From NCBI RefSeq assembly GCF_000337035.1, contig NZ_AOJL01000055.1, forward strand, positions 3,997-39,970: a stretch of DNA of 35,974 nt, in the 5' to 3' direction. The position numbers and the translations under genes were made by a program. This stretch comes from Halorubrum coriense DSM 10284 (lineage in GTDB: Archaea > Halobacteriota > Halobacteria > Halobacteriales > Haloferacaceae). A model generated the notes under the pieces. It was not told the origin of the DNA. It searched no databases and was given only the letters and a program-made list of their open reading frames with translations. This document shows, in pieces, positions 3,906-21,334 of the stretch (its first letter is position 1; each line of letters opens with the position of its first letter).

Positions 3906-4676
3906 CTATAACTGGTCAGAATACGTATACCCTGTCGCCACCTGATCAAGCACCTCGACGAGTGCGGCGGCGATTCCGAGCGAACACACTGCCCAAAGGA
4001 CATCGGCGATCGGACGTGTCACTGTTCCGTCACCGAAAGCGAGCAAGCCACCAACTAGGGCAGTTAGCGCGACACCGAGCGTTATGAAGCTCAGCCCAAC
4101 GTCCCACGGGTTCGAAAGCCGACCCCCTCCGAGTTGCGCGGGAGTTACTGCTGGTCGCGCAGCAGTGTTTGGGAGCGGCCAGATCGTTGTCTCGACATTG
4201 TGTATTGGAGTTGGATCGTTCATCACGATCGACTCTCGGATGTTATCCGTGTGTGTCCCATCAAATGCTGCGGCAACGTCTCGGTTCGGTGGGAGCGCAA
4301 AAAGGATCGCTCCGTTATGTTCTACTCGCTTGAGAATCCCGGCATCAACCAGCTTATCTATAGTCTTCCAGTAGGTCTTTCTCGTTATGTCCCTCGTCTG
4401 GCCCAAATTATTCTGTTCATGCCATCGAATGAGGTCCCCAAGGCGGAACCACTGTCGGTCGGTTGCGCCTGCCCGCAGTTGGACAAGACAAAAAGCTGTT
4501 ATTGGGTAGAACTTGTGACGGTGCTGTCCATTTGTCACGATATCTCCGTAGCTTGGAAACACATCCTTCATGGTGTACTCCTCACTTTGAGCAATCTGAT
4601 CGGAGACCCAATCCGGTATAAGCACACGCAGATTCTGCGTGAGTGGGTCATCAATATTGATTTGGTCTACAGACAT
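3906..4676 (-). CDS. Winged-helix domain protein with two C-terminal membrane helices
   Basis: No named family recognised. Residues about 60-150 look like a winged-helix DNA-binding domain: a helical stretch around FRLGDLIRWHEQ, then TRKTYWKTIDKLVDAGILKRVEHNGAILFALP, whose final strands form a typical wing. A linker of about 50 residues follows. The C-terminal third has two strongly hydrophobic segments (VGLSFITLGVALTALVGGLLAF and a second ending near AALVEVLDQ), suggesting a membrane-anchored DNA-binding protein. I start at the ATG at 4676 (MSVDQINIDD) rather than the GTG at 4688. The gene is alone on the minus strand. It resembles hypothetical proteins of haloarchaeal plasmids and integrated elements in general layout; a role in regulation or partition of the element is only a guess. 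Confidence 0.6.
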   Translation of the reverse strand: MSVDQINIDDPLTQNLRVLIPDWVSDQIAQSEEYTMKDVFPSYGDIVTNGQHRHKFYPITAFCLVQLRAGATDRQWFRLGDLIRWHEQNNLGQTRDITRKTYWKTIDKLVDAGILKRVEHNGAILFALPPNRDVAAAFDGTHTDNIRESIVMNDPTPIHNVETTIWPLPNTAARPAVTPAQLGGGRLSNPWDVGLSFITLGVALTALVGGLLAFGDGTVTRPIADVLWAVCSLGIAAALVEVLDQVATGYTYSDQL

Positions 4677-5058
4677 TAACGGGTACACTGTCGGCCGTCA
4701 ATTTGAATGTTATTCTGAAATTTCACCCGACTGAATCAAACGACCGTTCCGATGGGCTTGAACGGCTATGTTAGCTGGATATCGGCGCTAAGCCCCCACC
4801 CTCAACGGAGCGACCGAAGAGAGCGGAGTAGGGTAGGGTAGTTCACTTTTTGCGCTGATTGTGGCTACGACTCGGCCTCGCTAGAGTGCTGTCGTGGGGA
4901 GAGTTCGTCTCTTTTGACGTCTTGAGGCCTGCGCTGTCCGGTTCGTCAAAAAAAGCCGAGCAATGAGATACTTCTTCAATATAAATATGGCGACGAATAG
5001 ACACCCATCGATTGGTGGCGCGAATTATCTTCTCAGTCCCCCTTGCTACGCACACAAG
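4677..5058. other. 380-base intergenic region with nested inverted repeats
   Basis: No gene seen. An 8-bp repeat TTTTGACG (4912-4919) / CGTCAAAA (4944-4951) is nested inside CTCGGC (4871-4876) / GCCGAG (4955-4960), so the 90 bases between 4871 and 4960 could fold as one structured RNA or contain a bidirectional terminator. A TATA-like run CAATATAAATAT at about 4978-4989 lies upstream of the plus-strand gene cluster. Confidence 0.4.
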
Positions 5059-5301
5059 ATGCCAACCCACCTCGACATGCTGAACCGAACACACACACCT
5101 GACCGCGCCGGCAGGTTCTGGCGCACTGACAATACACATGAGATGACCGAACATGCTGACCCGACACTCCCACACCAACCAGGAGCGGCGAAGCTACCCC
5201 AGCCAGTCGCACTAGGGGACACGACCGCCACCGACTGGACTGACGCAGTTATCCGACGGATCGATCCCACCAGCAACGCCCGCTACAGAGACGCTCACTG
5301 A
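5059..5301 (+). CDS. Small hypothetical protein, first gene before the 712-aa gene
   Basis: An 80-aa frame from ATG 5059 to the stop at 5299-5301. No known domain is recognised. The sequence is polar (many Thr, Pro, Asp, Arg and His), with no membrane segment and a composition consistent with the GC-rich coding genes that follow. A TATA-like element at about 4978-4989 would start transcription some 40-60 bases upstream, and the next gene begins 18 bases after the stop, so the two are probably co-transcribed. A shorter start at ATG 5143 (MTEHADPTL) would give 52 aa. It could also be non-coding leader; confidence is limited. Confidence 0.35.
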   Translation: MPTHLDMLNRTHTPDRAGRFWRTDNTHEMTEHADPTLPHQPGAAKLPQPVALGDTTATDWTDAVIRRIDPTSNARYRDAH

Positions 5302-5319
5302 CGTATAGACACTGTACAA

Positions 5320-7458
5320 ATGTACGTTCCACGCGCAACTGACCCACCGGACCAACAGACGCCGGCGGTCGCGCGGCATGGCGCGATTCAGTGTCGTCAA
5401 AGCGGTGTCGATGATCCCTCACTTCGGATCTCGAATTCGCTGGGGCCGGCCCTCTCTCGGGTCCTCACACAGGGGCTCCGAGACACATCGTACGCATCGA
5501 TGGAACTGCTCGGGCTGACCGGCGTTGCGGTCCCAACTGTCGTGCTCCATGGGAGCGGTATCGACCGACATAATACGGGCTGGATCGGCGACGCCTCGCC
5601 GCCGTCAACAACAGACGCCAGTGATGCGTTAGCAGCGATCTGTACCGAGACGTTGCCGGATTGGTACGGCGTCGAAACGGGAACGCTCGTGCTCGATCCA
5701 GTTGGGCTTGCGGCCGCCCCGACCAGTCGGCTCGTTGTTCGTGAGGGGGCACCCTCTGGGGCAACGCTCGAGTCATTGGTCCGGACAATTTTCACCCGTA
5801 ACCACACCCGGAACGTGCCGACGCTCTGTCAGCTGCTCGTCCAGTATCGGGGCCACGATCGGTATCGGGTAACGGTCCGTGTCGCCGAACTCGGCGGTGC
5901 GTCTCGGCCGTTCGGCCGATATGGGCTCGCATCGTCGGTGGCGTCGCCGGCTCCTTGCCCGATCGATCGCGAGACACCGTCGACGATGACGTCCAGTCGG
6001 CGCTTGGCGACCGACGACTGGGAGACGCACGTTGAATCGAGCTATACACCGACACCAGGGCTGTCGGCGAGCGACGGAAGAACGCCTGCCTCAGACGCAG
6101 CGGAGGTTGGCTTACAGCTTCGGACGAGCATTCACGAGTACGCGGCGCTGCTTGCGGGAGCCACCGCCACGGAGCCGTATGAAGCGCTCACAGCGACGCC
6201 AACGATGGTCCTCTCGGAGACGGAGGTAGCAGGGCTCGTTGATTTCACGCCCCACTACGAGCCATGTCGCTGGCCCGAGACGTCCTCACGGGGGGCGCCG
6301 CGGTTCATTCGTGAGACCGTCCACACTGAGGCCGCCGGGACAGCGCGCGAGTCGTTGCTTGCCGGCCCACAACGAGAAATGACGCAGGGCGGCGTCCAAG
6401 GTGAGCCCTCGATCGGTGCGTTTGTCGACGGGTGGCTCTCAGTCAATGCCAGCAGCCACGAATCGGTCACGAACTGTTCACCTGGCGACCCGCATTTTCG
6501 TGGCCATCCCCACGACGCGACGGGGCCCGTCGTCGTGGCCGATCCCGAGGGCAACGGGTCAAAGGAGTCCATCACGAACGCTGGAGCACTCATTATCGCG
6601 GCAAATCGGGCACACCGGGCAGACGCACACCTCCTCGTCATCACGCCCACAGCGGAAGCCGCTGACTGGGCCCGCGACGTGTTGACCGTTCCGTATGTGC
6701 GCCGCCGTGGTGACGCCGTCGAGTTGTACACACTCCCGAAATCCATCCACACGACACGTGGCGACGTCCTTGTTGCGCCTCGGTGTTCGGAGCCGGTCTT
6801 CTGGACGGTCTCTGATACTGGAGATCGAGCGTTGTATCAGGGCGATCGGTGTCTCGGGTCCGGCCCGGTGACGGAGCCGCTCGGGTCGTATCCCTTCGAG
6901 TCGCCGCGAGCAAGGCGGCAGGATGGCTCGCTTTCCGTCAGTACTCACGACGGGGATATTCAGGCGGAGTTTGGCACAGATGCGGCGTTGTACGACGAGT
7001 ATCGGGTTGTCCAACGTCCAATTTTGCCAGTCCAGCCGCTGTTCTGTGCGGACGTTACGGTCGCCCACCGGGTGGGCAGTTCGCTCCATGAACCCCCTGT
7101 CCCGTTCCAACAGTTCGAGGAGACGAGCGGCGGGCGCCACCGGCGGCATCGTAACCGGGCGCTCTCGGAATTTCTCGAGCTATACACCCACCGAGCACCA
7201 GGGCGGACAACCGCTGGGACCAGCACCGCGCCGCGATTCGTTGACCAGCTAGCGAGTTGGTATGACGGCCACTCAACCCGAGCGCCGATTTGGCCGTTTG
7301 TTCGGTCGCAGATGGATCGGCGCCGGGGCGAGTGCGAAATAACCGATGACGGCGCGCTGACTGGCTACGCGTGGTGGACGCCCGCTCGGACGCTCTCGCT
7401 CGACCTCGCACACGGTCGCGCTGGTGAACCTGCGGTTGATCGGTCAAACAACAACTAG
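5320..7458 (+). CDS. Large hypothetical protein, divergent paralogue of the next gene
   Basis: A 712-aa protein without a clear named family. Segments align by eye with the following gene: residues 272-320 (HEYAALLAG...YEAL...HYEPC) match that protein's DYRALLAG...YEELFG...EYFEV; residues 404-450 (VVVADPEGN...NRAHRADAHLLVIT) match FHEIEVEND...ARADAHDHPVHVIT; residues 465-535 match a beta-rich stretch ending in a PFESPRARRQDGS-like segment; and the last about 90 residues (RPILPVQP, FLELYTHR, WPFVRSQM) match its C-terminal winged helix. The acidic residues that look catalytic in the partner are mostly not conserved here, so this copy may be structural or regulatory. It starts 18 bases after the preceding small gene and lies 207 bases before the preferred start of its partner, so an operon is likely. 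Codon use is GC-rich and regular, supporting a real gene. Confidence 0.55.
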   Translation: MYVPRATDPPDQQTPAVARHGAIQCRQSGVDDPSLRISNSLGPALSRVLTQGLRDTSYASMELLGLTGVAVPTVVLHGSGIDRHNTGWIGDASPPSTTDASDALAAICTETLPDWYGVETGTLVLDPVGLAAAPTSRLVVREGAPSGATLESLVRTIFTRNHTRNVPTLCQLLVQYRGHDRYRVTVRVAELGGASRPFGRYGLASSVASPAPCPIDRETPSTMTSSRRLATDDWETHVESSYTPTPGLSASDGRTPASDAAEVGLQLRTSIHEYAALLAGATATEPYEALTATPTMVLSETEVAGLVDFTPHYEPCRWPETSSRGAPRFIRETVHTEAAGTARESLLAGPQREMTQGGVQGEPSIGAFVDGWLSVNASSHESVTNCSPGDPHFRGHPHDATGPVVVADPEGNGSKESITNAGALIIAANRAHRADAHLLVITPTAEAADWARDVLTVPYVRRRGDAVELYTLPKSIHTTRGDVLVAPRCSEPVFWTVSDTGDRALYQGDRCLGSGPVTEPLGSYPFESPRARRQDGSLSVSTHDGDIQAEFGTDAALYDEYRVVQRPILPVQPLFCADVTVAHRVGSSLHEPPVPFQQFEETSGGRHRRHRNRALSEFLELYTHRAPGRTTAGTSTAPRFVDQLASWYDGHSTRAPIWPFVRSQMDRRRGECEITDDGALTGYAWWTPARTLSLDLAHGRAGEPAVDRSNNN

Positions 7459-7665
7459 CAACGTCATGAACTTCAGCGAAGTCACACTCCGGAATCCGCG
7501 ACGCGGGGGCCACTATAGCCGACCGAGGCCGCGGTGGCGCCACGCGTTGTGGAGTGCGGTCGCGCGATGTATCAACTCCAACCAGCGCCACAGCCAGCGG
7601 TCCGTCTTACCGCTGACTGTCCACGCTGGTGTGGCACTAACGCGGTTCCCCACTCCCTTCACCCA

Positions 7666-9999
7666 ATGATCAACACTCACGACACCCGATTGTACGTCGA
7701 TGAGAACGGCGAAATCCGGGCGTATCGACTGAATGCCGTCAGACTGGTCTTTCCTGGCTTGACTGACGAGACCGACGAGCGACGGCTTGAGAATCTGATC
7801 CCATTGGACGACGTCGCCGAAGACATCCTCAACGAGTACGGGATCGACCTGCTTGAGTTGTTGACGTGGCCGGGGAAAAGCCAACAGGAGTATTTCCTGA
7901 TCGGTCATAGTAAGGATGGCGGCGCAGGCTCACAAGCCGACCACCCGGCGGAATCACCGGATGTGGGGGGTGATGATACCACGGGCAGGACCGGGACACA
8001 GACGACAATTGAAGACGCTTTTGACGGCGAAGACGATGCGACGACGGCAGATGGTGAATCTGACCAGCCCGTCTCAGAGGGACGCGACGGCGACCGAGAT
8101 ACGCGGGCCGACCGGATCAAAGCGATCGTCGATGATCACTATGGCCACCTGCTTAGCACCCAGACGTGCGCCATTGATCTTGGCCCGGTTGGCCAGATGC
8201 CCGTTCCCACAAGTCGGTTACTTCAACCCAAAAATCTCTCTATTACCCCACCAACAGTCTCTCAGACCGCTGCCACGGCTGAACTCGTCCACCATCTCAA
8301 CGAAGAGCGCATCTCGTATCTCCACCACAGCCTGTTAGAGCCCGCCGGCGAGAAAGCCCCGCATGATTATCTCGTCACCTCGCGGCTCGCGCCGTTTGGT
8401 ACTGGACACGGGATTGTCACCGAAGACGACCTCGAACAGCATCTTGCGGCTGATAACGACTACCGAATCTCCGACTACGTGCCCGGCCCCTCGACAGACA
8501 ACTGGGATCTTCCCGTCGAGGCACACAAGCGCTATGCGAATAAGCAGACGACGCACCCGTCAAAACTCGAACAGTATGATGAGATGAGCCTCCGAGATGG
8601 TTCGGTCGAAGCGCTTGGTATCGGCTTTCCGGACTACCGTGCGCTCCTTGCCGGTCGTATCCACAACGACGATCGGTATGAAGAACTCTTCGGGGCCTAT
8701 GGCCGGATCCCGATCACAAAAGCCAATCTTGAGCATTTCTTCACGGTCCTGCCCGAGTACTTTGAGGTGAGTTCATTCGGGCAGCTCACGACCGTCGACG
8801 AACCGCGCGTCTACACGGAAGAGCTCGGCAGCGACGTCCCTGGCACCCGGCAGTCCTACGGCACAGATCACACCGGCGATTCGACAGCGCTGTCTGACAG
8901 CTCTGATGAAGAGTCAGAGCCGCACAAAGAGTTGGTCATCGAGCGAATCAAGTTCCTGCTTCGGCACGGCCACGAGATTGTTGCCGTCGATCAGGATATC
9001 ATCAGGATTGATCTCGATGATCCGGATCCCACGGAGGAACAGTATCTGGACGGAGAGTCTCGCCCGGATATTGTGAGTCAAAAAGACGGCGAGATTCTCT
9101 TCCACGAGATCGAAGTCGAAAACGACACGAAGCCGGCCGCACTGCTCACGAATCTCGCTCGGGCCGACGCGCACGATCATCCTGTCCATGTGATCACCGA
9201 ATCCGAGTCTGAAGCCCAAGGGAAACTGTGGTCGGATCCGCCCGAGGCCAAAGATGGCCCCGTCAGTATGGCGTTCAAAGACACCGACGATGTGGGGACG
9301 ATCCCGTACAACCAGGGGAAAACGGTCTCGACCGACGAATGTTGGTATTTGTTACCGCGTGTGCTTTCTGAATCGACGTGGCGACTGCTGCCAACAGATA
9401 CTGCCCAGCTGGTTGGACCAGACGGCTCAATCCTCGCGGAAGGCGATGCCGAACGGCCGGTTGAGTCGTTCGAGTTCCACACCCCCCGCGTCCGCGAAGA
9501 CGGAAGCGACTGGGTGTTAGAGTCGGCCTCTGGTGAGGAGCTTCGCCGGCGACAGACGAAAGACGCCGCCGCAAGCGGCTACACGTACATCCGGAAGCCG
9601 CTCATCCCGACACGGTTCGAGTATCTTGAAAATACGACCGTCGAATTTCAGTCGGGGAACGGCTTCACTATCTTCGAGAAGCCGCCGCTGTGGGAGCAGC
9701 CACAGCAAAATGCGTCAATTCGCTACGAAGAAGCCGCGAAAACGTTCGTGGAGTTAGTCACAGTCGAAGAAGAGGGCACCGAGATCCCGATTCCCACACT
9801 TCGCCGGCGGTTCAAGACGTGGTACACCGAACAGACGGATCTCAAAGAGCCGAACAAGACCTGGTTCGGGCGCGCGCTCCGCGTGTACTTCGAGGTTGAT
9901 GATGAAAACGACCACAACAAAACCCTCGTCGATCGAACGTTCCGGTTCTCCGAAGGGCTCGAATCACCGGCGCTGTCTTTCATCGACGACGAGGCGTAG
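7666..9999 (+). CDS. Large hypothetical protein with nuclease-like core and primase-like C-terminal winged helix
   Basis: A protein of about 777 aa from ATG 7666 (MINTHDTRLYVDENG); an in-frame ATG at 7567 would extend it by 33 residues of doubtful character. An N-terminal domain (about 1-80) precedes an acidic linker (TTIEDAFDGEDDATT). Residues about 420-495 resemble a PD-(D/E)XK-type nuclease fold: helix KELVIERIKFLLRHGHEIV, then RPDIV, then ILFHEIEVEND with closely spaced glutamates, though the usual Lys is Glu. The C-terminal 90 residues (FVELVTVEE...LRRRFKTWYTEQ...KTWFGRALRVYF) follow the spacing of the winged helix ending phage/plasmid D5-type primases. These are pattern resemblances, not database results. 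It is a distant paralogue of the 712-aa protein just upstream. The set suggests a replication, transfer or defence function of an integrated element. Confidence 0.6.
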   Translation: MINTHDTRLYVDENGEIRAYRLNAVRLVFPGLTDETDERRLENLIPLDDVAEDILNEYGIDLLELLTWPGKSQQEYFLIGHSKDGGAGSQADHPAESPDVGGDDTTGRTGTQTTIEDAFDGEDDATTADGESDQPVSEGRDGDRDTRADRIKAIVDDHYGHLLSTQTCAIDLGPVGQMPVPTSRLLQPKNLSITPPTVSQTAATAELVHHLNEERISYLHHSLLEPAGEKAPHDYLVTSRLAPFGTGHGIVTEDDLEQHLAADNDYRISDYVPGPSTDNWDLPVEAHKRYANKQTTHPSKLEQYDEMSLRDGSVEALGIGFPDYRALLAGRIHNDDRYEELFGAYGRIPITKANLEHFFTVLPEYFEVSSFGQLTTVDEPRVYTEELGSDVPGTRQSYGTDHTGDSTALSDSSDEESEPHKELVIERIKFLLRHGHEIVAVDQDIIRIDLDDPDPTEEQYLDGESRPDIVSQKDGEILFHEIEVENDTKPAALLTNLARADAHDHPVHVITESESEAQGKLWSDPPEAKDGPVSMAFKDTDDVGTIPYNQGKTVSTDECWYLLPRVLSESTWRLLPTDTAQLVGPDGSILAEGDAERPVESFEFHTPRVREDGSDWVLESASGEELRRRQTKDAAASGYTYIRKPLIPTRFEYLENTTVEFQSGNGFTIFEKPPLWEQPQQNASIRYEEAAKTFVELVTVEEEGTEIPIPTLRRRFKTWYTEQTDLKEPNKTWFGRALRVYFEVDDENDHNKTLVDRTFRFSEGLESPALSFIDDEA

Positions 10000-10212: not shown

Positions 10213-11370
10213 ATGAGAACGCAAGACCTCCCTTCGGATGCGCCCGGACACTATCAGGAGTCATATCCTCATCCATACTACATTCCAGAAAAATTGCCTG
10301 TTTCATCCCCGATCGAGATCGATGACGAACTCACCGCAGTAATCTCGGACGCGGCATTTCAACTAGGACGGATTGATGGAATCAGTCCGACAGTCGATTT
10401 CTCGCCGGTGATGTACACGTCGCTTCTCAGACTCGAAGCCGTCGAGACTGCCGAAATCGAAGGCGCAGATGTCGAGATGGATGAGGTATACGCGTATCAC
10501 ACACGAAGCAAGTCCGGCACCACCGGGAGCGTGAGTCGTGATCTTCAACAAGTGCTGAACGCGGAACAAGCGCTTCGAGACGGCTTCGACGCGATCACAA
10601 GTGGGGAACCGATTTCGATACCATTGCTCAAATCTCTCCATGAGACACTGCTTGGAGGAGTTCGGAACGAGGGTGATACTGTCGGCGAGTGGCGAGACAC
10701 TGACGTCCATATTCCGTCCCTACGGGGGGGTCAGCCTCCGTTTGTCCCCCCACCAGCAAACACTTTCCCAGAATTAATGGACTCGCTAGAGGCGTACATT
10801 CAGATGGGGGGTGAGTATCATCCGTTGGTCGACTTGGCGATCACTCACTACCAGTTCGAAACAATCCATCCCTGTTCGGATGGCAACGGCCGTCTTGGGC
10901 GGATTCTGATCGTGTTACAACTCCATGCGGCCGGCTATCTGTCCGATCCATATCTCTATCCGAGTGCATATTTCAATCGAAACAAACAGGAGTACGTTGA
11001 ACGGATGCGGGCAGTCAGCGAAGAAGGCAACTGGCGTGACTGGATCGCGTTCTTTGTTGAGGGCATTGAAGAACAGGCCCGCGATTCCTACGAGCGGACG
11101 TTCGAGTTGGTCGAACTGCGCCGAGCGTACGAAACCCAATATCCGGATCAAAAAACGAGCCACAAGCTCGCCAGAACGCTGTTTGAGCTTCCGTATTTCA
11201 CTGCGACCGATGTCACCGAACGGTTCGATGTGAGCAGACAGACTGCCTACAACGCGATCGAAGAAGTTGAGGCAAACGGCTTAGTTGTTGAGGTGACGGG
11301 CCAACAGCGGAATCGCGAATACAAAGCGGTCGATATCTTCGATATCCTCGAACGGGGGCCACACCGTTGA
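10213..11370 (+). CDS. Fic/DOC family protein with N-terminal inhibitory helix and C-terminal winged helix
   Basis: Fic enzymes transfer AMP (or another nucleotide-derived group) from a nucleotide to hydroxyl side chains of target proteins. The active loop is HPCSDGNGRLGR (residues 219-230), matching HPFx(D/E)GNGRxxR with Cys in place of Phe. The N-terminal domain has the autoinhibitory motif TAEIEG (residues 79-84), the (S/T)xxxE(G/N) pattern of class II Fic proteins, in which Glu83 blocks ATP placement. A Fic_N-like region (about 20-110) and a central helical Fic domain (about 135-260) are followed by a C-terminal winged helix (about 310-385, FTATDVTERFDVSRQTAYNAIEEVEANGLV). The length, 385 aa, is normal for this architecture. 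It is a single-gene unit, convergent with the PIN/UPF0175 pair 48 bases away. Target unknown; it could act as a stand-alone toxin-like or stress regulator. Confidence 0.92.
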   Translation: MRTQDLPSDAPGHYQESYPHPYYIPEKLPVSSPIEIDDELTAVISDAAFQLGRIDGISPTVDFSPVMYTSLLRLEAVETAEIEGADVEMDEVYAYHTRSKSGTTGSVSRDLQQVLNAEQALRDGFDAITSGEPISIPLLKSLHETLLGGVRNEGDTVGEWRDTDVHIPSLRGGQPPFVPPPANTFPELMDSLEAYIQMGGEYHPLVDLAITHYQFETIHPCSDGNGRLGRILIVLQLHAAGYLSDPYLYPSAYFNRNKQEYVERMRAVSEEGNWRDWIAFFVEGIEEQARDSYERTFELVELRRAYETQYPDQKTSHKLARTLFELPYFTATDVTERFDVSRQTAYNAIEEVEANGLVVEVTGQQRNREYKAVDIFDILERGPHR

Positions 11371-13998: not shown

Positions 13999-14724
13999 AT
14001 GGGTGACGACGAGCTCCGACAGGCCGTCCGCGACGCGTGGGGCGGGGCGTGTCTTGTCTGCGGCCGATCCCCTGAGAGTTGGCTCAACACCACCTCCGGA
14101 GAGCGACGGCAGGATGTGCTCTCACTCCATCACATCAACGGAGACGACACCGACGACCGTGTCGCCAACGTGATCCCGCTGTGCCAGAGTTGTCATGTCC
14201 ACATTCACAAAGTCGACGAGCCGCCCTACCGGCAGTGGCACCGACAACTGCCGATCGAACACCGCAACGCGTGGAACGCTCACTACAAAGAGTACTACGA
14301 GGGACCACGGATCAGCAGTAACGAGGCAGCCCGGCTGTTCGGCGACGACGATGGGACGCCAGCCAGTGAAAAGTATCGTCGCCATGAGCCAGGAGTGGCG
14401 ACGAACGAAGACGATCCTGCGGAGTCAACGTCGGACGCGACAGCTGAGGGAGACACCGAAGCCTCGGTGACTGGCGACGCCGAAACGGACACTGTACCCG
14501 AACCGGACCGTGGTCAAGTGTCTGCCACTGATCCAGCCGCGATCGGTATCACGTTCGTTCCTCCCGAGTCGTCACGCCGTCGGATCCGGTTCGTCGAACG
14601 TGACGATGGACCGGGATGGTGGCGGGTCGACAACGAGTGGACTGGCTGTCGATGGCGGCCGGTGGGACGCGAACCGGTCACCGACGTGGTAGTGAGTAGT
14701 GGAGGTGGCTTCGTCGAAGAGTAG
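13999..14724 (+). CDS. HNH endonuclease
   Basis: Predicted metal-dependent HNH nuclease. The zinc-binding pairs are CLVCG (Cys18, Cys21) and CQSC (Cys62, Cys65), bracketing the ββα-Me core LSLHHINGDDTDDRVANVIPL in shorter pieces: LHHINGDD (His44, His45) and NVIPLCQSCH, ending with HIH. This is a textbook HNH arrangement. The rest is a helical extension (about 75-115), an acidic Thr/Glu-rich linker (about 125-190) and a C-terminal domain with many Trp and Arg (GWWRVDNEWTGCRWRPVGREP), possibly DNA-binding. I start at ATG 13999 (MGDDELRQAV). It lies between the two TumE-like modules and is convergent with the intact one. It might be a restriction, homing or element-encoded nuclease; no methyltransferase is nearby. 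Confidence 0.85.
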   Translation: MGDDELRQAVRDAWGGACLVCGRSPESWLNTTSGERRQDVLSLHHINGDDTDDRVANVIPLCQSCHVHIHKVDEPPYRQWHRQLPIEHRNAWNAHYKEYYEGPRISSNEAARLFGDDDGTPASEKYRRHEPGVATNEDDPAESTSDATAEGDTEASVTGDAETDTVPEPDRGQVSATDPAAIGITFVPPESSRRRIRFVERDDGPGWWRVDNEWTGCRWRPVGREPVTDVVVSSGGGFVEE

Positions 14725-16059: not shown

Positions 16060-16710
16060 CTAACTGAAGTCGTAGTCGCTCTCTCGCGCGTCGACGTACG
16101 CGTCGTTGCCCGTTCGATCAGGGACATAACAGGGGCCGCGGTCAGCCATGTGGAACACGGGTGCCTCGATGTCGAGGCTCGTTTTGCGGTGGAACAAGAG
16201 CGGGAGTCGGTCGCGTAACTCTTGGATGAACGGTTCGCGCCGGGCGCGGAGCGTGCCGCGTGGCGGCCGACAGTTGGTCAACGGTGGCAGTTGATCGTCG
16301 TGGAGATCGGGGTCGGTGATGATCCGGACGTCGAGCAGTTGTGCCAACTCCCACGCACCAGCGGTCACGTTCCGGGCGACAGCAAGGACTGGCATTGCTC
16401 GTGCGAGCGCGGCCCGGAGGGCGACGGCTTCGACTGCGTCACGCTGGACGGCCGTCTTGTGCCAGTCTTTACACTCAACAACGAGGAAGTCATCTGGATC
16501 CCCACGGAAGTCATCGCGCCGGGCGATCACGTCCGTTTCGAGGCCGAAGAGCTGCTCGTTGCGAGCTGTCCTGTACCCCCATTCTTCGAGTGTTTCGGCC
16601 ACTTCTGTTTCGAACCAGCGGCCGTTCGTTTGGTCGTGGTCCGGATCCTCGCCATCCGGCGTGCCGACGCTGTCGAGGTCGGTTGTAAGATCGTCTACGT
16701 TGTTACTCAT
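16060..16710 (-). CDS. PD-(D/E)XK restriction endonuclease-like protein
   Basis: Predicted nuclease of the restriction endonuclease-like fold, similar in layout to Mrr/NERD-type domains. After an acidic N-terminus (1-28) comes RWFETEVAETLEEWGY, the helix with a conserved Glu; then LETDVIARR with Asp60, then FLVVECKDW with Glu79 and Lys81, completing D-x18-E-C-K. The next helices (VEAVALRAALARAMPVLAVARNVTAGAWELAQLLDVRIIT) are as in this fold. ATG 16710 is chosen (MSNNVDDLTT); it overlaps the preceding gene's stop by 8 bases. It is the last gene of the six-gene minus-strand operon, so its partner proteins are probably the 81-aa and 939-aa products. No methyltransferase accompanies it, so classical restriction-modification is unlikely. 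Confidence 0.78.
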   Translation of the reverse strand: MSNNVDDLTTDLDSVGTPDGEDPDHDQTNGRWFETEVAETLEEWGYRTARNEQLFGLETDVIARRDDFRGDPDDFLVVECKDWHKTAVQRDAVEAVALRAALARAMPVLAVARNVTAGAWELAQLLDVRIITDPDLHDDQLPPLTNCRPPRGTLRARREPFIQELRDRLPLLFHRKTSLDIEAPVFHMADRGPCYVPDRTGNDAYVDARESDYDFS

Positions 16711-16948
16711 TGGTGGGTTCCTCCACACTGTCGGCTGTTTCTGCGCGTGCGGCCGCCTGATCGAGCGCTGTGGCGATTGTTTTGGCGTCTGCGGGTGTGA
16801 GGGCCGCGTAAGTGACCTCGTCGTTAGCACCGAAGCTGAGAGTCACCCGGGTATCGTCGGCTGCGGTGTCGACTTGGATGGCTCCGGTCACTGCTGTCGG
16901 GCGGTTGCGTCTGACGACTGTCTCCAGATCGAGCGTTGGGTCACTCAT
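16703..16948 (-). CDS. Small hypothetical protein between the 939-aa gene and the endonuclease gene
   Basis: An 81-aa acidic protein, family not recognised. It has a predicted beta-rich first half (VTGAIQVDTAADDTRVTLSFGANDEVTYAALT) and a helical second half (ADAKTIATALDQAAARAE), with an acidic C-terminal tail. Its ATG overlaps the end of the 939-aa gene (16945-16948) and its stop overlaps the endonuclease start, so all three are translationally coupled. The size and position suggest a subunit or partner of one of its neighbours, but nothing in the sequence says which. Confidence 0.7.
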   Translation of the reverse strand: MSDPTLDLETVVRRNRPTAVTGAIQVDTAADDTRVTLSFGANDEVTYAALTPADAKTIATALDQAAARAETADSVEEPTNE

Positions 16949-19764
16949 TGGTGGCCTCCTGTTGGCAGTTGGGTTTGTGGCGTTGCGACTGCTGTTGTCG
17001 GGATTGGTCGGGCATTTTCGTGGGTTGGTGTCTCGGTGGTATCGGATGTACAGTGACTGTTCGGTCGTTGGCTGTTGGTGTCTCTTGGATACATTGTGGT
17101 CGCAGCTGGGCAGGGGGTGAGTCTGACTGGCGGTTGCCTGCCCCAGTCGGTACTGCTGGGACCGCTCGTGTGTGCCGGCGGCCAGCTCCCCGCTTCAGTG
17201 ATTGGTGCGTCTCGATGCGTCTCCAGCTGTGTTGTTCTGTGGCCGCTGTGCGGTGGGAGCCACGTCGTTACCGGCGGTGTTCGTGGGCTTGTTGTCGTCC
17301 ACCGGCGGTGGCCCCCTTGCTGGACTGCTTGGACGCGATCGAGCTCGCGGACAGCGCTGATCCGCCGGTCGTAGCTGCTCGCCGAGATGTCTGCTCGCTC
17401 GATCAGTCTCGACCGGCCAAGTGGGCCGTCAGATCGGAGAAGCGCGGCGTACAGCTTTGTTGCTGTCGGCGTCAGGTCGGGCCGGAAGCGCGTCGGCGAA
17501 AGCGTGGCTGCGGCGCGTTCGACGGCGGCCGGTGATGGTGTGTGAGACTCGTTCAGCGCTCGGAGCAGGCTCACCACGACGTCGTACGGACACGCACGCT
17601 GGGTGTCCGCCGGGCCGAACGAGCGCAGACACAGCCGGATGAGCCGCTGGCGCTCACGGGGTGTCCACTCAACGTCTTGGATCATCGCTATCTCGTCGAT
17701 TACCCGCCGGATGGCGGGGTAGGTCGTCCCGTCGACGACCGGAATCTCGAGTGTTGGTGCGGCTTCAGTGCCCTCGGCGATCGCCTCTCGGACCTCGGTG
17801 AGTTCCGCATCGAGTGCGGTGGCAATTTCGTCGCGAAGTTCAGTGGCTGTCGGGCCCGCAACCACCCACGACATGGTGAGGTCCATCGTCGCGTTTTGGT
17901 CGGGTTCGTACGGAAGTCGGCGACGCAGTTTTTCGGGGCGGTCTTCGAATAGCAGTCGGTAGCCCGAGTGAATCCCGTACGCGGACTGTTTGGGCGCTGT
18001 TTTGGCGAGGAACCCACAGAGGTCTTGGAGGGTGGTGGTGTTGCGTGCGAGAGCGTCGGTGTCAGGGACTCTAATGGTAGTTGTGAGGTCGATGCCGGCC
18101 GCGTGATACAGTTGCGTTGCCGAAGCGATGAGCCCATGAAGATCCTCGAAGAGGTCGCTTCGGGCGGCCGTGTCGTCACTACCCGCGAGTTCAGCGACTT
18201 TTACGAGAAGATGATCTCGAACGGTGGTGATTCGCTGTTTCCATGCCTCGTACGTTGTTTCGTCATCGCTGAACCAGCCAACTTGGTGACCACGACGGAG
18301 GATGCGGCTGACATCGTGATCGGGAGTTTTGTGGAGTGTCTCGAACTCCTGGCCAAGCCGTGATGGGGTAAGGATTTTCGAGAGTGCTTTGTTGCTCAGT
18401 AAGGCGTTCGCGAGACGTCCCAACGTTGCGAGGGGGCCGCCCCACTGGAGCACGACGAGGGTTTCTTTGTTGGTGTGGCTGAGGTACGCAACACGGCTAT
18501 CCTCAAACGAACGTGGCTGGCCATCCACGAGCGTGATGGCGTTCTCATGCGCGACCGTGCTAAATCGCTCGTGGAGGTGGGCTGGGGCGTCTGCTGGGCC
18601 AGTGAGCCACTGGACGTATGCCCCGCCTCCGTCTGGGTCGCCAGTTGCTGCCACCCACTCGTCGGGTGTGGGTCGTGTCTCGCCCGGTCGGCGGGACGAC
18701 ACTGTACTTGTATCGTCCTGAAGGGTTGTGGTAAGACCCTCTCCGAGCCGGCGTTGATCCGAGGGGACGAGTCCGTAGTTGTCGTCGAGACACTGCTGGA
18801 CGGCCAGTTTTCCGAGGTCGGTCAGTTGGACCGTGTTCTGTTGGCCACGACGATCGACCGTGACGACGTTACGAGTCTCGAGATCGAGGACATAGTTGCT
18901 GATCGTGCCGTCGGCGATATCGATCGCGTGGTCGTTGGCAAGGTCCCGGTAGCTCCGGGCGTACTCTGTACTGAGGTTCCCGAGGAGTCGGCGTTTCCCT
19001 GGTTCGGTGTCGAGATCACGGATGGCCTCCCATGCGGCGTCGACACTCTGGGAAGAGTGGTCGGTGTTGGGGGACCGATCCCGGCTGTCAGTAAGATTGA
19101 GGTGACAGTCGGTCCAGTCCGGGTACCGTTTCGAGAGATGTCGTTGGACCGTAGGGGATGCGACGAGCCTGACGTCGAATCCAGTAGCGAGGACAGCCAT
19201 CGTCGCGAGTGCGCGAACGCCCGTGCGGCGATCCCTGAGAGTGGTCCACGCCTGGCCATCTAGTAAGAGCGTGATGACGCGTGGCTGGTCGTCGAGTTCA
19301 CGATGGAGTACCACCGGACCCCTCGCGAGTGCGCCGAGTCCGGCGTTGACTGGCCCACGTCCCGTGCCGATGCTGGTGACGGTGTCGGTTAGCTCGGCCT
19401 GTCGCCGTTGGTGGTACTCGGTGAGCGCGCTGTTAGGTTCGTCTCGGTAGGTGAGCGCGAGTTCCGTAATCGCGCGGGTGTACGCAACGGCCTCAGCGAT
19501 GTCGTTGGTCCATGGGTTGTCCAAGGTCTGCCACGCAGGCAGCGTTTCTGCGAGGAGCTGTGAACTCGTCCGACACGGATCTGTGGCGGCGTGATTGCGG
19601 ATGGTCTGCTCAGTGCGGGGCCGGAGCTTAGCGAGGAGCTCCGGTACCCACTCAGTTAGCTGAGGCGAGACCGCTGAACAGACGATTCCCCCGGTTGAAC
19701 TGGTTGTCTCGGGACTGACAAGCTGGACCCCACGCTTGCGGGCCGCAGGCCGGCGTGTTCCCAC
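16945..19764 (-). CDS. 939-aa protein with two winged-helix domains, unknown function
   Basis: Not assigned to a named family; it looks like large hypothetical proteins of haloarchaeal plasmids and islands. A helical N-terminus (about 35-130) precedes a region with RVITLLLDGQAWTTLRDRR. A winged helix lies near 250-325 (DLANDHAIDIADGTISNYVLDLETRNVV, then TVQLTDLG). A middle alpha/beta region (380-480) contains VAYLSHTNKETLVVLQWGG and a helical repeat region follows. A second winged helix occupies 767-825 (LYAALLRSDGPLGRSRLIERADISASSYDRRISAV). The last 110 residues are Thr/Pro-rich and unstructured. The start is taken as GTG 19764, the first after an in-frame stop; later starts are possible. 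No ATPase or nuclease motif is visible. It overlaps the 81-aa gene by 4 bases, and a stem-loop abuts its start. Confidence 0.7.
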   Translation of the reverse strand: MGTRRPAARKRGVQLVSPETTSSTGGIVCSAVSPQLTEWVPELLAKLRPRTEQTIRNHAATDPCRTSSQLLAETLPAWQTLDNPWTNDIAEAVAYTRAITELALTYRDEPNSALTEYHQRRQAELTDTVTSIGTGRGPVNAGLGALARGPVVLHRELDDQPRVITLLLDGQAWTTLRDRRTGVRALATMAVLATGFDVRLVASPTVQRHLSKRYPDWTDCHLNLTDSRDRSPNTDHSSQSVDAAWEAIRDLDTEPGKRRLLGNLSTEYARSYRDLANDHAIDIADGTISNYVLDLETRNVVTVDRRGQQNTVQLTDLGKLAVQQCLDDNYGLVPSDQRRLGEGLTTTLQDDTSTVSSRRPGETRPTPDEWVAATGDPDGGGAYVQWLTGPADAPAHLHERFSTVAHENAITLVDGQPRSFEDSRVAYLSHTNKETLVVLQWGGPLATLGRLANALLSNKALSKILTPSRLGQEFETLHKTPDHDVSRILRRGHQVGWFSDDETTYEAWKQRITTVRDHLLVKVAELAGSDDTAARSDLFEDLHGLIASATQLYHAAGIDLTTTIRVPDTDALARNTTTLQDLCGFLAKTAPKQSAYGIHSGYRLLFEDRPEKLRRRLPYEPDQNATMDLTMSWVVAGPTATELRDEIATALDAELTEVREAIAEGTEAAPTLEIPVVDGTTYPAIRRVIDEIAMIQDVEWTPRERQRLIRLCLRSFGPADTQRACPYDVVVSLLRALNESHTPSPAAVERAAATLSPTRFRPDLTPTATKLYAALLRSDGPLGRSRLIERADISASSYDRRISAVRELDRVQAVQQGGHRRWTTTSPRTPPVTTWLPPHSGHRTTQLETHRDAPITEAGSWPPAHTSGPSSTDWGRQPPVRLTPCPAATTMYPRDTNSQRPNSHCTSDTTETPTHENARPIPTTAVATPQTQLPTGGHQ

Positions 19765-19790
19765 AGCCGATCACCTCGGGGTAATCGGCT
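19765..19790 (-). promoter_or_regulatory. Stem-loop directly abutting the start codon of the 939-aa gene
   Basis: AGCCGAT (19765-19771) pairs with ATCGGCT (19784-19790) around a 12-base loop. On the minus strand the last stem base is immediately followed by the GTG at 19764, so the stem could control ribosome access. It is one of three consecutive stem-loops between this gene and its upstream neighbour. Confidence 0.5.
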
Positions 19791-19793
19791 GGC

Positions 19794-19823
19794 GGGTCGG
19801 AGTTGTCAGCATTACTCCGACCC
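19794..19823 (-). promoter_or_regulatory. 10-10-10 stem-loop containing the stop codon of the upstream gene
   Basis: GGGTCGGAGT (19794-19803) and ACTCCGACCC (19814-19823) are exact complements with a 10-base loop. The TAA of the cysteine/histidine protein (19812-19814) sits at the edge of the loop. It could be an RNA processing site, attenuator or terminator. Confidence 0.55.
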
Positions 19824-20288
19824 CTCGCGCGGAGGGCCACCATCAGAGCGCGCCGCTTCTCGAACAGCTGTGAGAAGCGGCGCTGGTTCCTGCTCTGGTG
19901 GGTCAGTTGGCGAGCGCGGTGTTGGGGCTTCCGGGTGGACGTGTGGCTCGGAGTTCGTTGTGGGGCTCGTGACTACGACGGTCGGTTCACAAAGGACGAA
20001 CGTTGTCGACTGCGTCTGGGTGTTGACGCACGTCCCGATGTGGCCCGTGAGGACGTACTCGTGAACACCACGGGTGAAGACGGTCGGGTGTTCGTGAACA
20101 TCCGACCCGCACATGATGTAACCGATAGCGTACGTGGGTTCGCCGGCCGCACGATAGGCGTAGGCCGTGATGCCGTCGCCTTCGTGGAGTTGTTGTCCGC
20201 ACACCTGGCAGATTGGGTTGGAGGTGTTGAGCGAGATGCGTGTGAGCTGTGAGATATCTGCTGCTTCTCGGTTGTCGAGGTAGCTCAT
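19812..20288 (-). CDS. Cys/His-rich putative zinc-binding protein
   Basis: A 158-aa protein with a zinc-knuckle-like CQVCG near residue 28 and further Cys/His residues (IMCGSDVHEH near 59, then HIGTCV) that could complete one or two zinc sites. The first 110 residues are a compact domain; the last 50 (PHVHPEAPTPRSPTDPPEQEPAPLL in part) are Pro-rich and probably disordered. Such small zinc proteins are common in haloarchaeal mobile elements, function unknown. It shares an ATGA overlap with the preceding winged-helix gene (20285-20288). Its final codons and stop are embedded in two strong stem-loops. Confidence 0.65.
   Translation of the reverse strand: MSYLDNREAADISQLTRISLNTSNPICQVCGQQLHEGDGITAYAYRAAGEPTYAIGYIMCGSDVHEHPTVFTRGVHEYVLTGHIGTCVNTQTQSTTFVLCEPTVVVTSPTTNSEPHVHPEAPTPRSPTDPPEQEPAPLLTAVREAARSDGGPPREGSE
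19850..19883 (-). repeat. 12-10-12 perfect inverted repeat within the 3' end of the zinc-protein gene
   Basis: GCGCCGCTTCTC (19850-19861) and GAGAAGCGGCGC (19872-19883) match exactly around a 10-base loop, giving the strongest hairpin in the window. It lies inside the coding sequence about 35 bases before its stop. It precedes two further stem-loops in the direction of transcription. Confidence 0.65.
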
Positions 20289-20611
20289 TTGTGCCCCCTC
20301 TCATTGGCGTCGCGACTGCTACCTTGCCACGCTTGCCGGGCGGTAAGTGCGCGACGGGCTGGCTCAGTCAGTTGGTACGTGGTCGTGTTGCGGGTCTTTT
20401 TGCTAATATAATCGCGCTCAATGAGTTCTTGGAGAGCGTTACAGACTCGAGTTTGGTCGATGCTGTCGGGGTAGTAGTCGGAGAGTGTGTGGTGGAGTGA
20501 CCGTCCCTCGCTGAGGCCAGCCTGCGAGAGTAGCCAGAGCAGGTCACGGTGGATGATTGAGAGATCGGCAAGCGAGTGAGCAGCATCGCTCTCAGTGTTG
20601 TGACTAGACAT
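20285..20611 (-). CDS. Small winged-helix DNA-binding protein
   Basis: A 108-aa protein that is essentially one winged-helix domain, PadR/MarR-like in layout: LSIIHRDLLWLLSQAG (helix 1), LHHTLSDYYPDSIDQTRVCNALQELIERDYI (turn and recognition helix), then a wing KTRNTTTYQLTEPARRAL. This is a typical haloarchaeal helix-turn-helix regulator and a reasonable candidate to control the operon. Its ATG at 20611 overlaps the upstream zinc-ribbon gene by 8 bases and its stop overlaps the next ATG (ATGA). No ligand-binding domain is present. Confidence 0.75.
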   Translation of the reverse strand: MSSHNTESDAAHSLADLSIIHRDLLWLLSQAGLSEGRSLHHTLSDYYPDSIDQTRVCNALQELIERDYISKKTRNTTTYQLTEPARRALTARQAWQGSSRDANERGHK

Positions 20612-20795
20612 TGTGCCCCTCTTTGGTGTCTTTGTCGATGCTGCGTGTCGTCGCGCACGTGCTACACAGTGGTCTCTTGGAGGCTGCGTCGTAGCGGTCA
20701 GCTATGTTTGTACACAAACGACAGCCAGGGCTGTTACTGTTCGATTCGTCAGTCGTCTCGCAGGGCTTAAGCCCCGCAGTTGCCACCATTAGCAT
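20604..20795 (-). CDS. Small zinc-ribbon protein, first gene of the operon
   Basis: A 63-aa protein with two Cys-x2-Cys pairs, CRLC and CSTC, about 17 residues apart, as in small zinc ribbons. The rest is polar. Two ATGs are possible, 20795 (MLM) and 20789; the first lies exactly at the foot of a 9-6-9 stem-loop. The gene overlaps the winged-helix gene by 8 bases, making it the head of a six-gene coupled series ending with the endonuclease at 16060. Short length lowers confidence, but the overlap and Cys pattern support it. Confidence 0.55.
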   Translation of the reverse strand: MLMVATAGLKPCETTDESNSNSPGCRLCTNIADRYDAASKRPLCSTCATTRSIDKDTKEGHNV

Positions 20796-20819
20796 GGTTC
20801 TGTGTTATGGCACAGAACC
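20796..20819 (-). promoter_or_regulatory. 9-6-9 stem-loop directly abutting the first start codon of the operon
   Basis: GGTTCTGTG (20796-20804) and CACAGAACC (20811-20819) pair perfectly around a 6-base loop. On the minus strand ATG follows the last stem base with no gap. It could be a translational switch in the leader or a DNA operator. Confidence 0.6.
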
Positions 20820-20821
20820 CG

Positions 20822-20854
20822 TCCCGGCTGGGTGTTGGAGCACCGCAGCCGGGA
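20822..20854 (-). promoter_or_regulatory. Second leader stem-loop with nested stem
   Basis: TCCCGGCTG (20822-20830) pairs with CAGCCGGGA (20846-20854), and inside it GGTG (20831-20834) pairs with CACC (20841-20844), so nearly 13 bp can form. It is separated from the start-codon hairpin by only 2 bases. Together they make a compact two-hairpin leader. Confidence 0.6.
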
Positions 20855-20931
20855 GTTCTACTCTTTCTCACTAGCCAAGAGTTCGTCACTTGGGTTCCGT
20901 AGATACCTGTTGAGGATCTTGTTACTTGAAT

Positions 20932-20944
20932 GTACTGGAAGTAC
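20932..20944. promoter_or_regulatory. Operator-like repeat GTACT-GGA-AGTAC upstream of PhiH1-like repressor
   Basis: A 5-3-5 inverted repeat about 50-65 bases before the repressor ATG, between the two divergent transcription units. Its position would let the repressor control itself or the minus-strand operon; this is inference. Confidence 0.3.
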
Positions 20945-20963
20945 TCTAGAACACTAAGCGGGC

Positions 20964-20973
20964 AGATATTAAA
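20964..20973 (+). promoter_or_regulatory. TATA-like box of the PhiH1-like repressor gene
   Basis: AGATATTAAA lies 23-32 bases before the ATG at 20996, fitting a leaderless promoter. Confidence 0.45.
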
Positions 20974-20995
20974 CACGGGTCCACTCATGTATCGT

Positions 20996-21334
20996 ATGAG
21001 ATATGCGGGAGAATGGATGTCTGCGGCAGATGACCGAATTCTAGAATATCTATCTGAATACGAGTCGGGCTCTCCAACGAAAATGAAGAAAGAGGGTCCA
21101 ATTCGATACTCCCGTGTACAAGTTCATAGACGGTGTAAAAAGCTAGCAGAGAACGGTCTTATAAATGATCTTGGTAATGGGGTCTACATGATCACTGACG
21201 ACGGTGAGGCATATCTTAAGGGTCAACTTGACACAAAAAACTGGCAGTATATTGATGAGGACGCTGATGTGGTTGGTACTAACGACAGTACCGACGCTAC
21301 TTCCAACGAGAGTTCCAATAGAGACAATTCCTGA
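20996..21334 (+). CDS. PhiH1 repressor-like winged-helix protein
   Basis: A 112-aa winged-helix regulator resembling the repressor of halophage PhiH and its many haloarchaeal relatives. MRYAGEWMSAADDRILEYLSEYESGSP is the characteristic start with helix 1; then IRYSRVQVHRRCKKLAENGLINDLGNGVYMITDDGEAYL gives the recognition helix and wing. The last 30 residues are acidic and Ser/Asn/Asp-rich. I start at ATG 20996 because relatives begin with this M-x-x-x-x-x-W-M pattern and the TATA-like box fits; the frame stays open further upstream. It is transcribed divergently from the zinc-ribbon operon and probably represses part of this element. Confidence 0.8.
   Translation: MRYAGEWMSAADDRILEYLSEYESGSPTKMKKEGPIRYSRVQVHRRCKKLAENGLINDLGNGVYMITDDGEAYLKGQLDTKNWQYIDEDADVVGTNDSTDATSNESSNRDNS

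Follow-up and report, generated by a model that had tools for sequence, protein, structure and literature searches.

A haloarchaeal gene pair related to the C-terminal half of archaeal coupling ATPases, with a nuclease-like site conserved in only one of the two paralogues

A 35,974-nucleotide stretch of the Halorubrum coriense DSM 10284 genome (the window, to which coordinates refer unless another locus is named), taken from a contig of 39,970 bases, carries two very large open reading frames in tandem, which raises the question of whether their products form a functional unit and what such a unit might do. Gene A (5320..7458, + strand) encodes 712 aa, and gene B (7666..9999, + strand), whose open frame starts at 7534 upstream of the ATG at 7666, encodes 777 aa. 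The original prediction described them as distant paralogues with collinear segments. This description is borne out by BLASTP (E = 4e-8, 21% identity over 588 aa) and by comparison of an A profile built from 21 sequences with a B profile built from 23 (E = 2.4e-68, 668 columns, 16% identity), and the two results together rule out chance similarity of the neighbouring genes. Because the profile match spans 668 columns, the paralogy is full length and collinear. In a phylogenetic tree, 53 long members split into an A clade (25 sequences, with gene A in this lineage) and a B clade (28 sequences). The nearest named carriers of the pair are Halorubrum ezzemoulense, H. tebenquichense, Halorubrum sp. 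Atlit-26R and Halovenus aranensis. Neither protein has a significant match in Pfam, NCBIfam, PHROGs or PADLOC, in keeping with the proposal that the pair is an undescribed module.

If A and B act together, they should be inherited together, and the original prediction suggested a survey of their neighbourhoods. Among 391 genomes of the class, B-like matches were found in 30 and A-like matches in 17. Five or six of the B-like matches are weak and mostly hit the winged helix of coupling ATPases; without them the distribution is patchy, over about 6% of genomes, with several divergent copies per genome. Genes outside the window were called by a simple codon-usage script. An A-lineage gene adjoins B in 28 of 28 cases, and the pair does travel as a unit. 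Full-length A and B are adjacent in 24 loci, one further locus has B cut by the contig end, and in four (L081, L082, L083 and L092) B is accompanied by a protein of 330-386 aa that consists of the C-terminal half only. In a tail tree that left out L092, the short partners of the other three loci group with A (100/99). A precedes B in 13 loci and follows it in 12. Many loci have overlapping or almost overlapping frames, the overlap being 4-11 nt in nine of them, as would be expected of co-translated subunits. In a mirror-tree analysis, the pairwise distances of A and B correlate with r = 0.961 over 23 loci, as compared with a maximum of no more than 0.40 in 5000 permutations. Joint inheritance of a unit would give a correlation of this kind, which supports a complex without proving one. 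Remnants of the pair, consisting of fragments or interrupted frames, are present in L084 (genome G317), L086 (G251) and L087 (G008), evidence of frequent loss.

Two neighbours had been counted as possible parts of the module. An 80-aa ORF (5059-5301) in the long region upstream of A (4689..5319, + strand) is not conserved: the nearest relative has only a 51-aa ORF in the corresponding position (E = 0.001), the next relative has none, and the neighbourhood comparison rules it out as a constant third partner. No repeats of 14 nt or more occur in this upstream region. A divergent winged-helix protein with two C-terminal membrane segments (3906..4676, - strand) is confined to the window's sub-family, where it is present at six loci; four loci of another sub-family have an unrelated gene family of similar layout in the same position. 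A third, short paralogue of the tail module lies upstream in five loci (201-227 aa) and, as a 271-aa protein, in L085.

Several other features lie near pairs. A Fic/SoFic-like protein with a C-terminal winged helix is encoded just downstream of the pair in the window (10213-11370), and a similar gene stands beside the pair or a remnant in L058 and L087. The window also has an HNH-nuclease-like gene (13999-14724), and in ten loci from several sub-families a member of its family lies no more than 6 kb from the pair. L075:13115-18058, directly upstream of an A-B pair, consists of about 4.9 kb without a called gene and carries arrays of 44-nt and 22-nt direct repeats, and downstream of a B-A pair, L078:13929-16428 contains four repeats of about 88 nt, spaced by about 114 nt and bounded by TAATTAC.

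The two paralogues were originally proposed to differ at a nuclease-like site, with catalytic residues conserved only in the second protein. Seven residues of B (H420, P467, D468, E481, E483, N496 and R499) are invariant in all 28 homologues, most of which are only about 20-25% identical to the B of the window, and K489 is kept in 25 of the 28. They fall within a restriction-endonuclease-like core (aa ~413-519; 8902..9222, + strand) delineated by conservation in B and coupling ATPases and by the order of elements in a low-confidence model, and they include a PD...ExE motif at aa 467-483 (9064..9114, + strand) defined in the homologue alignment. The region of A that aligns to this core (aa 365-456; 6412..6687, + strand) is degenerate. 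None of 25 A homologues has the complete H/PD/ExE/N/R set, nor do any of the four short A-like partners, and many A homologues retain one aspartate near the place of the glutamates. Strict conservation in B and absence of the set from A support the reading of the pair as an active-looking and an inactive paralogue.

Where does this C-terminal half come from? The first lead was a series of weak matches between the C-terminus of B and ORFs of more than 1000 aa in the search of 391 genomes. One such ORF was scanned and found to be a TraG/VirD4-type coupling ATPase (TrwB_AAD_bind, TraG-D_C), the plasmid homologues of which are annotated as 'type IV secretory system conjugative DNA transfer family protein'. 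In hhalign comparisons the tail of these ATPases matches B with E = 3e-21 (4 ATPases) or 2e-24 (22 ATPases), and A with E = 9e-8 or 1e-9, respectively. Outside the pair, the B profile matched mainly ORFs of coupling-ATPase size in 145 genomes, and all those inspected were ATPases; the C-terminal half, comprising core, beta domain and winged helix, was found elsewhere only in archaeal coupling ATPases. Of 36 haloarchaeal coupling ATPases, 35 or all 36 retain each of H, PD, ExE and N. A wider search located the PD..ExE core at the end of VirD4-like ATPases of another archaeal family as well (L181:1599-3374, L182:2725-5601, L183:2298-4823 and L184:574-3264), and the tail domain is therefore not confined to haloarchaea. 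The core is thus a tail domain widespread among archaeal coupling ATPases and undescribed in the libraries searched. Alignment A7, with which the core was searched, includes one window row from which an insertion was removed, and it served as a search profile only; in the tail tree the depth around the ATPases is poorly resolved. 'Transfer' was one of the functions originally guessed for the pair, and the C-terminal half shared with conjugative coupling ATPases now gives that guess real evidence.

Three long ORFs were also seen. The products of L159:1367-11254 and L160:3922-12000, about 3200-3300 aa in length, combine a coupling-ATPase motor with the PD..ExE core; by eye, both have a region like primase/TOPRIM and L159 has a winged-helix-like C-terminus, suggesting a transfer-plus-primase fusion. 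L158:320-8368 encodes a 2683-aa coupling-ATPase-like protein with hydrophobic N-terminal segments and the nuclease-like tail.

The remaining domains of A and B were also compared with the ATPases. The beta-rich domain of B (aa ~559-670; 9340..9675, + strand) is present in coupling ATPases too, and the C-terminal winged helix of B, of primase/D5 type (aa ~683-760; 9712..9945, + strand), matches the end of ATPases of about 1040 aa. A winged-helix-like region of A (aa ~603-690; 7126..7389, + strand) aligns to B and to the coupling-ATPase tails. The related winged helix of the coupling ATPases scores against Pox_D5 and PHROG primases, weakly and below curated cut-offs, which agrees with the primase-like character originally assigned to the winged helix of A and B. 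At the N-terminus, A (aa 18-124; 5371..5691, + strand) and B (aa 17-171, with an acidic linker; 7714..8178, + strand) each have a predicted beta-alpha-beta-beta-alpha-beta region, based on low-confidence AlphaFold2 models and a weak profile match. A joint A and B N-terminal profile matches the pre-motor region of the ATPases in the right order with E = 3e-4 and a probability of 40%; its score of 39.9 compares with 24.6 for the best decoy in 56 comparisons and with scores of about 20 for reversed profiles, and scores were weaker with other profile sets. This resemblance is suggestive. N-terminal homology to the 375-aa product of a separate gene that lies upstream of the ATPase was considered and rejected, as that match alone is below significance. 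A P-loop pattern is present in 0 of 25 A and 0 of 28 B proteins, in contrast to 59 of 60 coupling ATPases, and no motor domain was matched in A or B by Pfam. The N-terminal membrane anchor typical of VirD4/TraG proteins was detected by hydropathy in 0 of 28 B proteins and in a single A of 25, which barely exceeds the 1.6 threshold. With a shared tail, a weakly similar N-terminus and no P-loop, A and B look like motor-less coupling proteins.

Taken together, the comparisons establish a C-terminal half in common with coupling ATPases, an acidic site that is strict in B only, obligate pairing and co-evolution, all at the level of sequence. Our preferred reading, to which we would give an even chance, is a hetero-oligomer of A and B that processes the replicon or island carrying it; the complex would be motor-less and derived from, or co-ancestral with, the DNA-handling parts of coupling ATPases. 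The N-terminal regions of A and B would assemble the complex, their winged helices would bind a DNA site, and B would cut or nick the bound DNA; A would serve as a dead scaffold or specificity subunit, an arrangement known from nucleases that have one inactive subunit, and the target would be mobile-element DNA. The biochemical part of this proposal, a heteromeric complex that binds and cuts mobile DNA, is probably correct, while a mobilisation-like role in processing the carrying replicon or island is held tentatively.

Evidence on the biological role comes from genomic setting. The window's pair shares an island with a RepH-type replication module (16060..21334, - strand) that contains an Mrr-like nuclease (16060-16710), RepH (16945-19764) and a regulator on the + strand (21017-21334). 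RepH was identified by 46% identity to pNRC100/pHH1-type RepH and by a PHROG replication-protein match. Parts of such a module lie within about 10 kb of the pair in seven loci spanning three A/B sub-families (the window, L058, L059, L068, L075, L077 and L079), and in a sample of 16 genomes from the window's genus the pair and RepH co-occur (4/4 vs 3/12, p = 0.02). Pairs sit in islands among toxin-antitoxin genes, and in the most complete assemblies intact pairs are on chromosome-sized contigs (G085, G202 twice and G154). No record of the plasmid collection matched A, B or two divergent B queries, and no homologue was found in phage records or IMG/VR scans, near records possibly being left out of both searches; a plasmid-borne module and a viral origin were rejected on these grounds. 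No T4SS genes occur near any pair, and neither A nor B matches a relaxase or MOB domain in Pfam, NCBIfam or PHROGs. The window's own genome has no VirD4/TraG-type coupling ATPase with the tail, and one is present in only 7 of 25 genomes with the pair or its remnants; in a background sample of 145 genomes, 61 carry one (p = 0.27). The pair is therefore independent of a resident coupling machine of this type.

This setting is also compatible with immunity, in which a chromosomal system would recognise incoming or conjugating plasmids through the shared tail module and either cleave their DNA or poison the coupling ATPase. The patchy occurrence, multiple divergent copies and frequent remnants of the pair fit such a system, as do its islands among toxin-antitoxin genes, its chromosomal location and the fact that coupling ATPases are no commoner in genomes that carry it. 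Absence from plasmid records favours interference with incoming plasmids; it is unexpected for a plasmid mobilisation module and counts against self-processing. Conversely, PADLOC 2.0 has no model matching A, B, the divergent neighbour, the third short paralogue or the short A, known defence genes are not consistently linked to the pair, and linkage to RepH is equally expected for a gene of the element itself. Self-processing is favoured by that linkage to a replicon module and by the fact that coupling ATPases strictly conserve the site seen in B. Support for the two is almost equal, with island self-processing narrowly ahead and immunity a possible, though doubtful, alternative.

A PD-(D/E)XK-type site was originally proposed for B, and its acidic part stands, with PD..ExE invariant; the canonical lysine is not at its usual place, and nuclease activity is for this reason putative. 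The PD..ExE residues could instead form a metal or nucleotide site used in regulation. The missing lysine is consistent with this, as is a model of too low confidence to place the residues of a protein with no solved relative. The AlphaFold2 models of A and B, built on shallow alignments of the window and related loci only, have poor mean pLDDT values of 46.8 and 45.5, and Foldseek returned nothing significant for either, so the folds are predicted only. The structural comparison originally suggested yielded a similar predicted order of N-terminal elements in the two proteins and no significant fold match. The core had no significant match among solved structures or curated families; one core member scored 0.0014 against Pfam REase_AHJR-like, under the family cut-off. 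A non-catalytic role nevertheless appears unlikely, as the acidic triad is strictly conserved and the predicted order of strands and helices in the low-confidence B model fits the restriction-endonuclease fold.

An improbable alternative is that the pair serves integrated RepH/Orc replicons in replication or partition, its winged helices binding the origin and its nuclease-like site nicking or structuring that DNA: the RepH modules in the same islands, the Orc1/Cdc6-like genes near other pairs and the resemblance of the winged helix to primase C-termini agree with it, but related RepH modules without the pair in G013, G014 and G103, and 51 plasmids with RepH relatives and no pair, indicate that RepH replicons do not need it.

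The tail domain may have a wider significance. Archaeal conjugative plasmids have no recognisable relaxase (review PMC9905601; recent study PMC12857230), and this makes the domain, of which we found no description in the non-subscription papers searched, a candidate for the missing nuclease of archaeal conjugation. It is conceivable, if something of a long shot, that the PD..ExE and winged-helix tail of the ATPases is that DNA-processing nuclease and that A/B is its free-standing, motor-less, relaxosome-like heteromer, with a cutting subunit directed by its dead sister. A conserved ATPase tail, together with a two-gene, motor-less version that has a catalytically dead control subunit, would be a compact candidate for cutting transferred DNA. 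Should the pair block conjugation instead, the host would have a barrier against plasmid transfer that descends from the very machinery of transfer.

Comparison with known systems places A and B closest to archaeal VirD4/TraG ATPases, with which they share the core carrying H/PD/ExE/N, the beta domain and the primase-type winged helix, and from which they differ in lacking the whole motor and nearby T4SS genes and in being duplicated with one dead site. B may resemble the PD-(D/E)XK superfamily in having PD and then an acidic ExE on what are predicted to be successive strands, with a fitting predicted helix order, although its third position reads ExE rather than ExK. The C-terminal position of the winged helix and its W...WFGR spacing recall poxvirus D5/P4-type primases, whereas A and B have no primase or helicase domain. 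XPF-ERCC1 and RecB-RecC are nucleases with one catalytically dead sister subunit. A and B have no detectable sequence relation to them, and the analogy is one of organisation only: catalytic and non-catalytic sister subunits that co-evolve.
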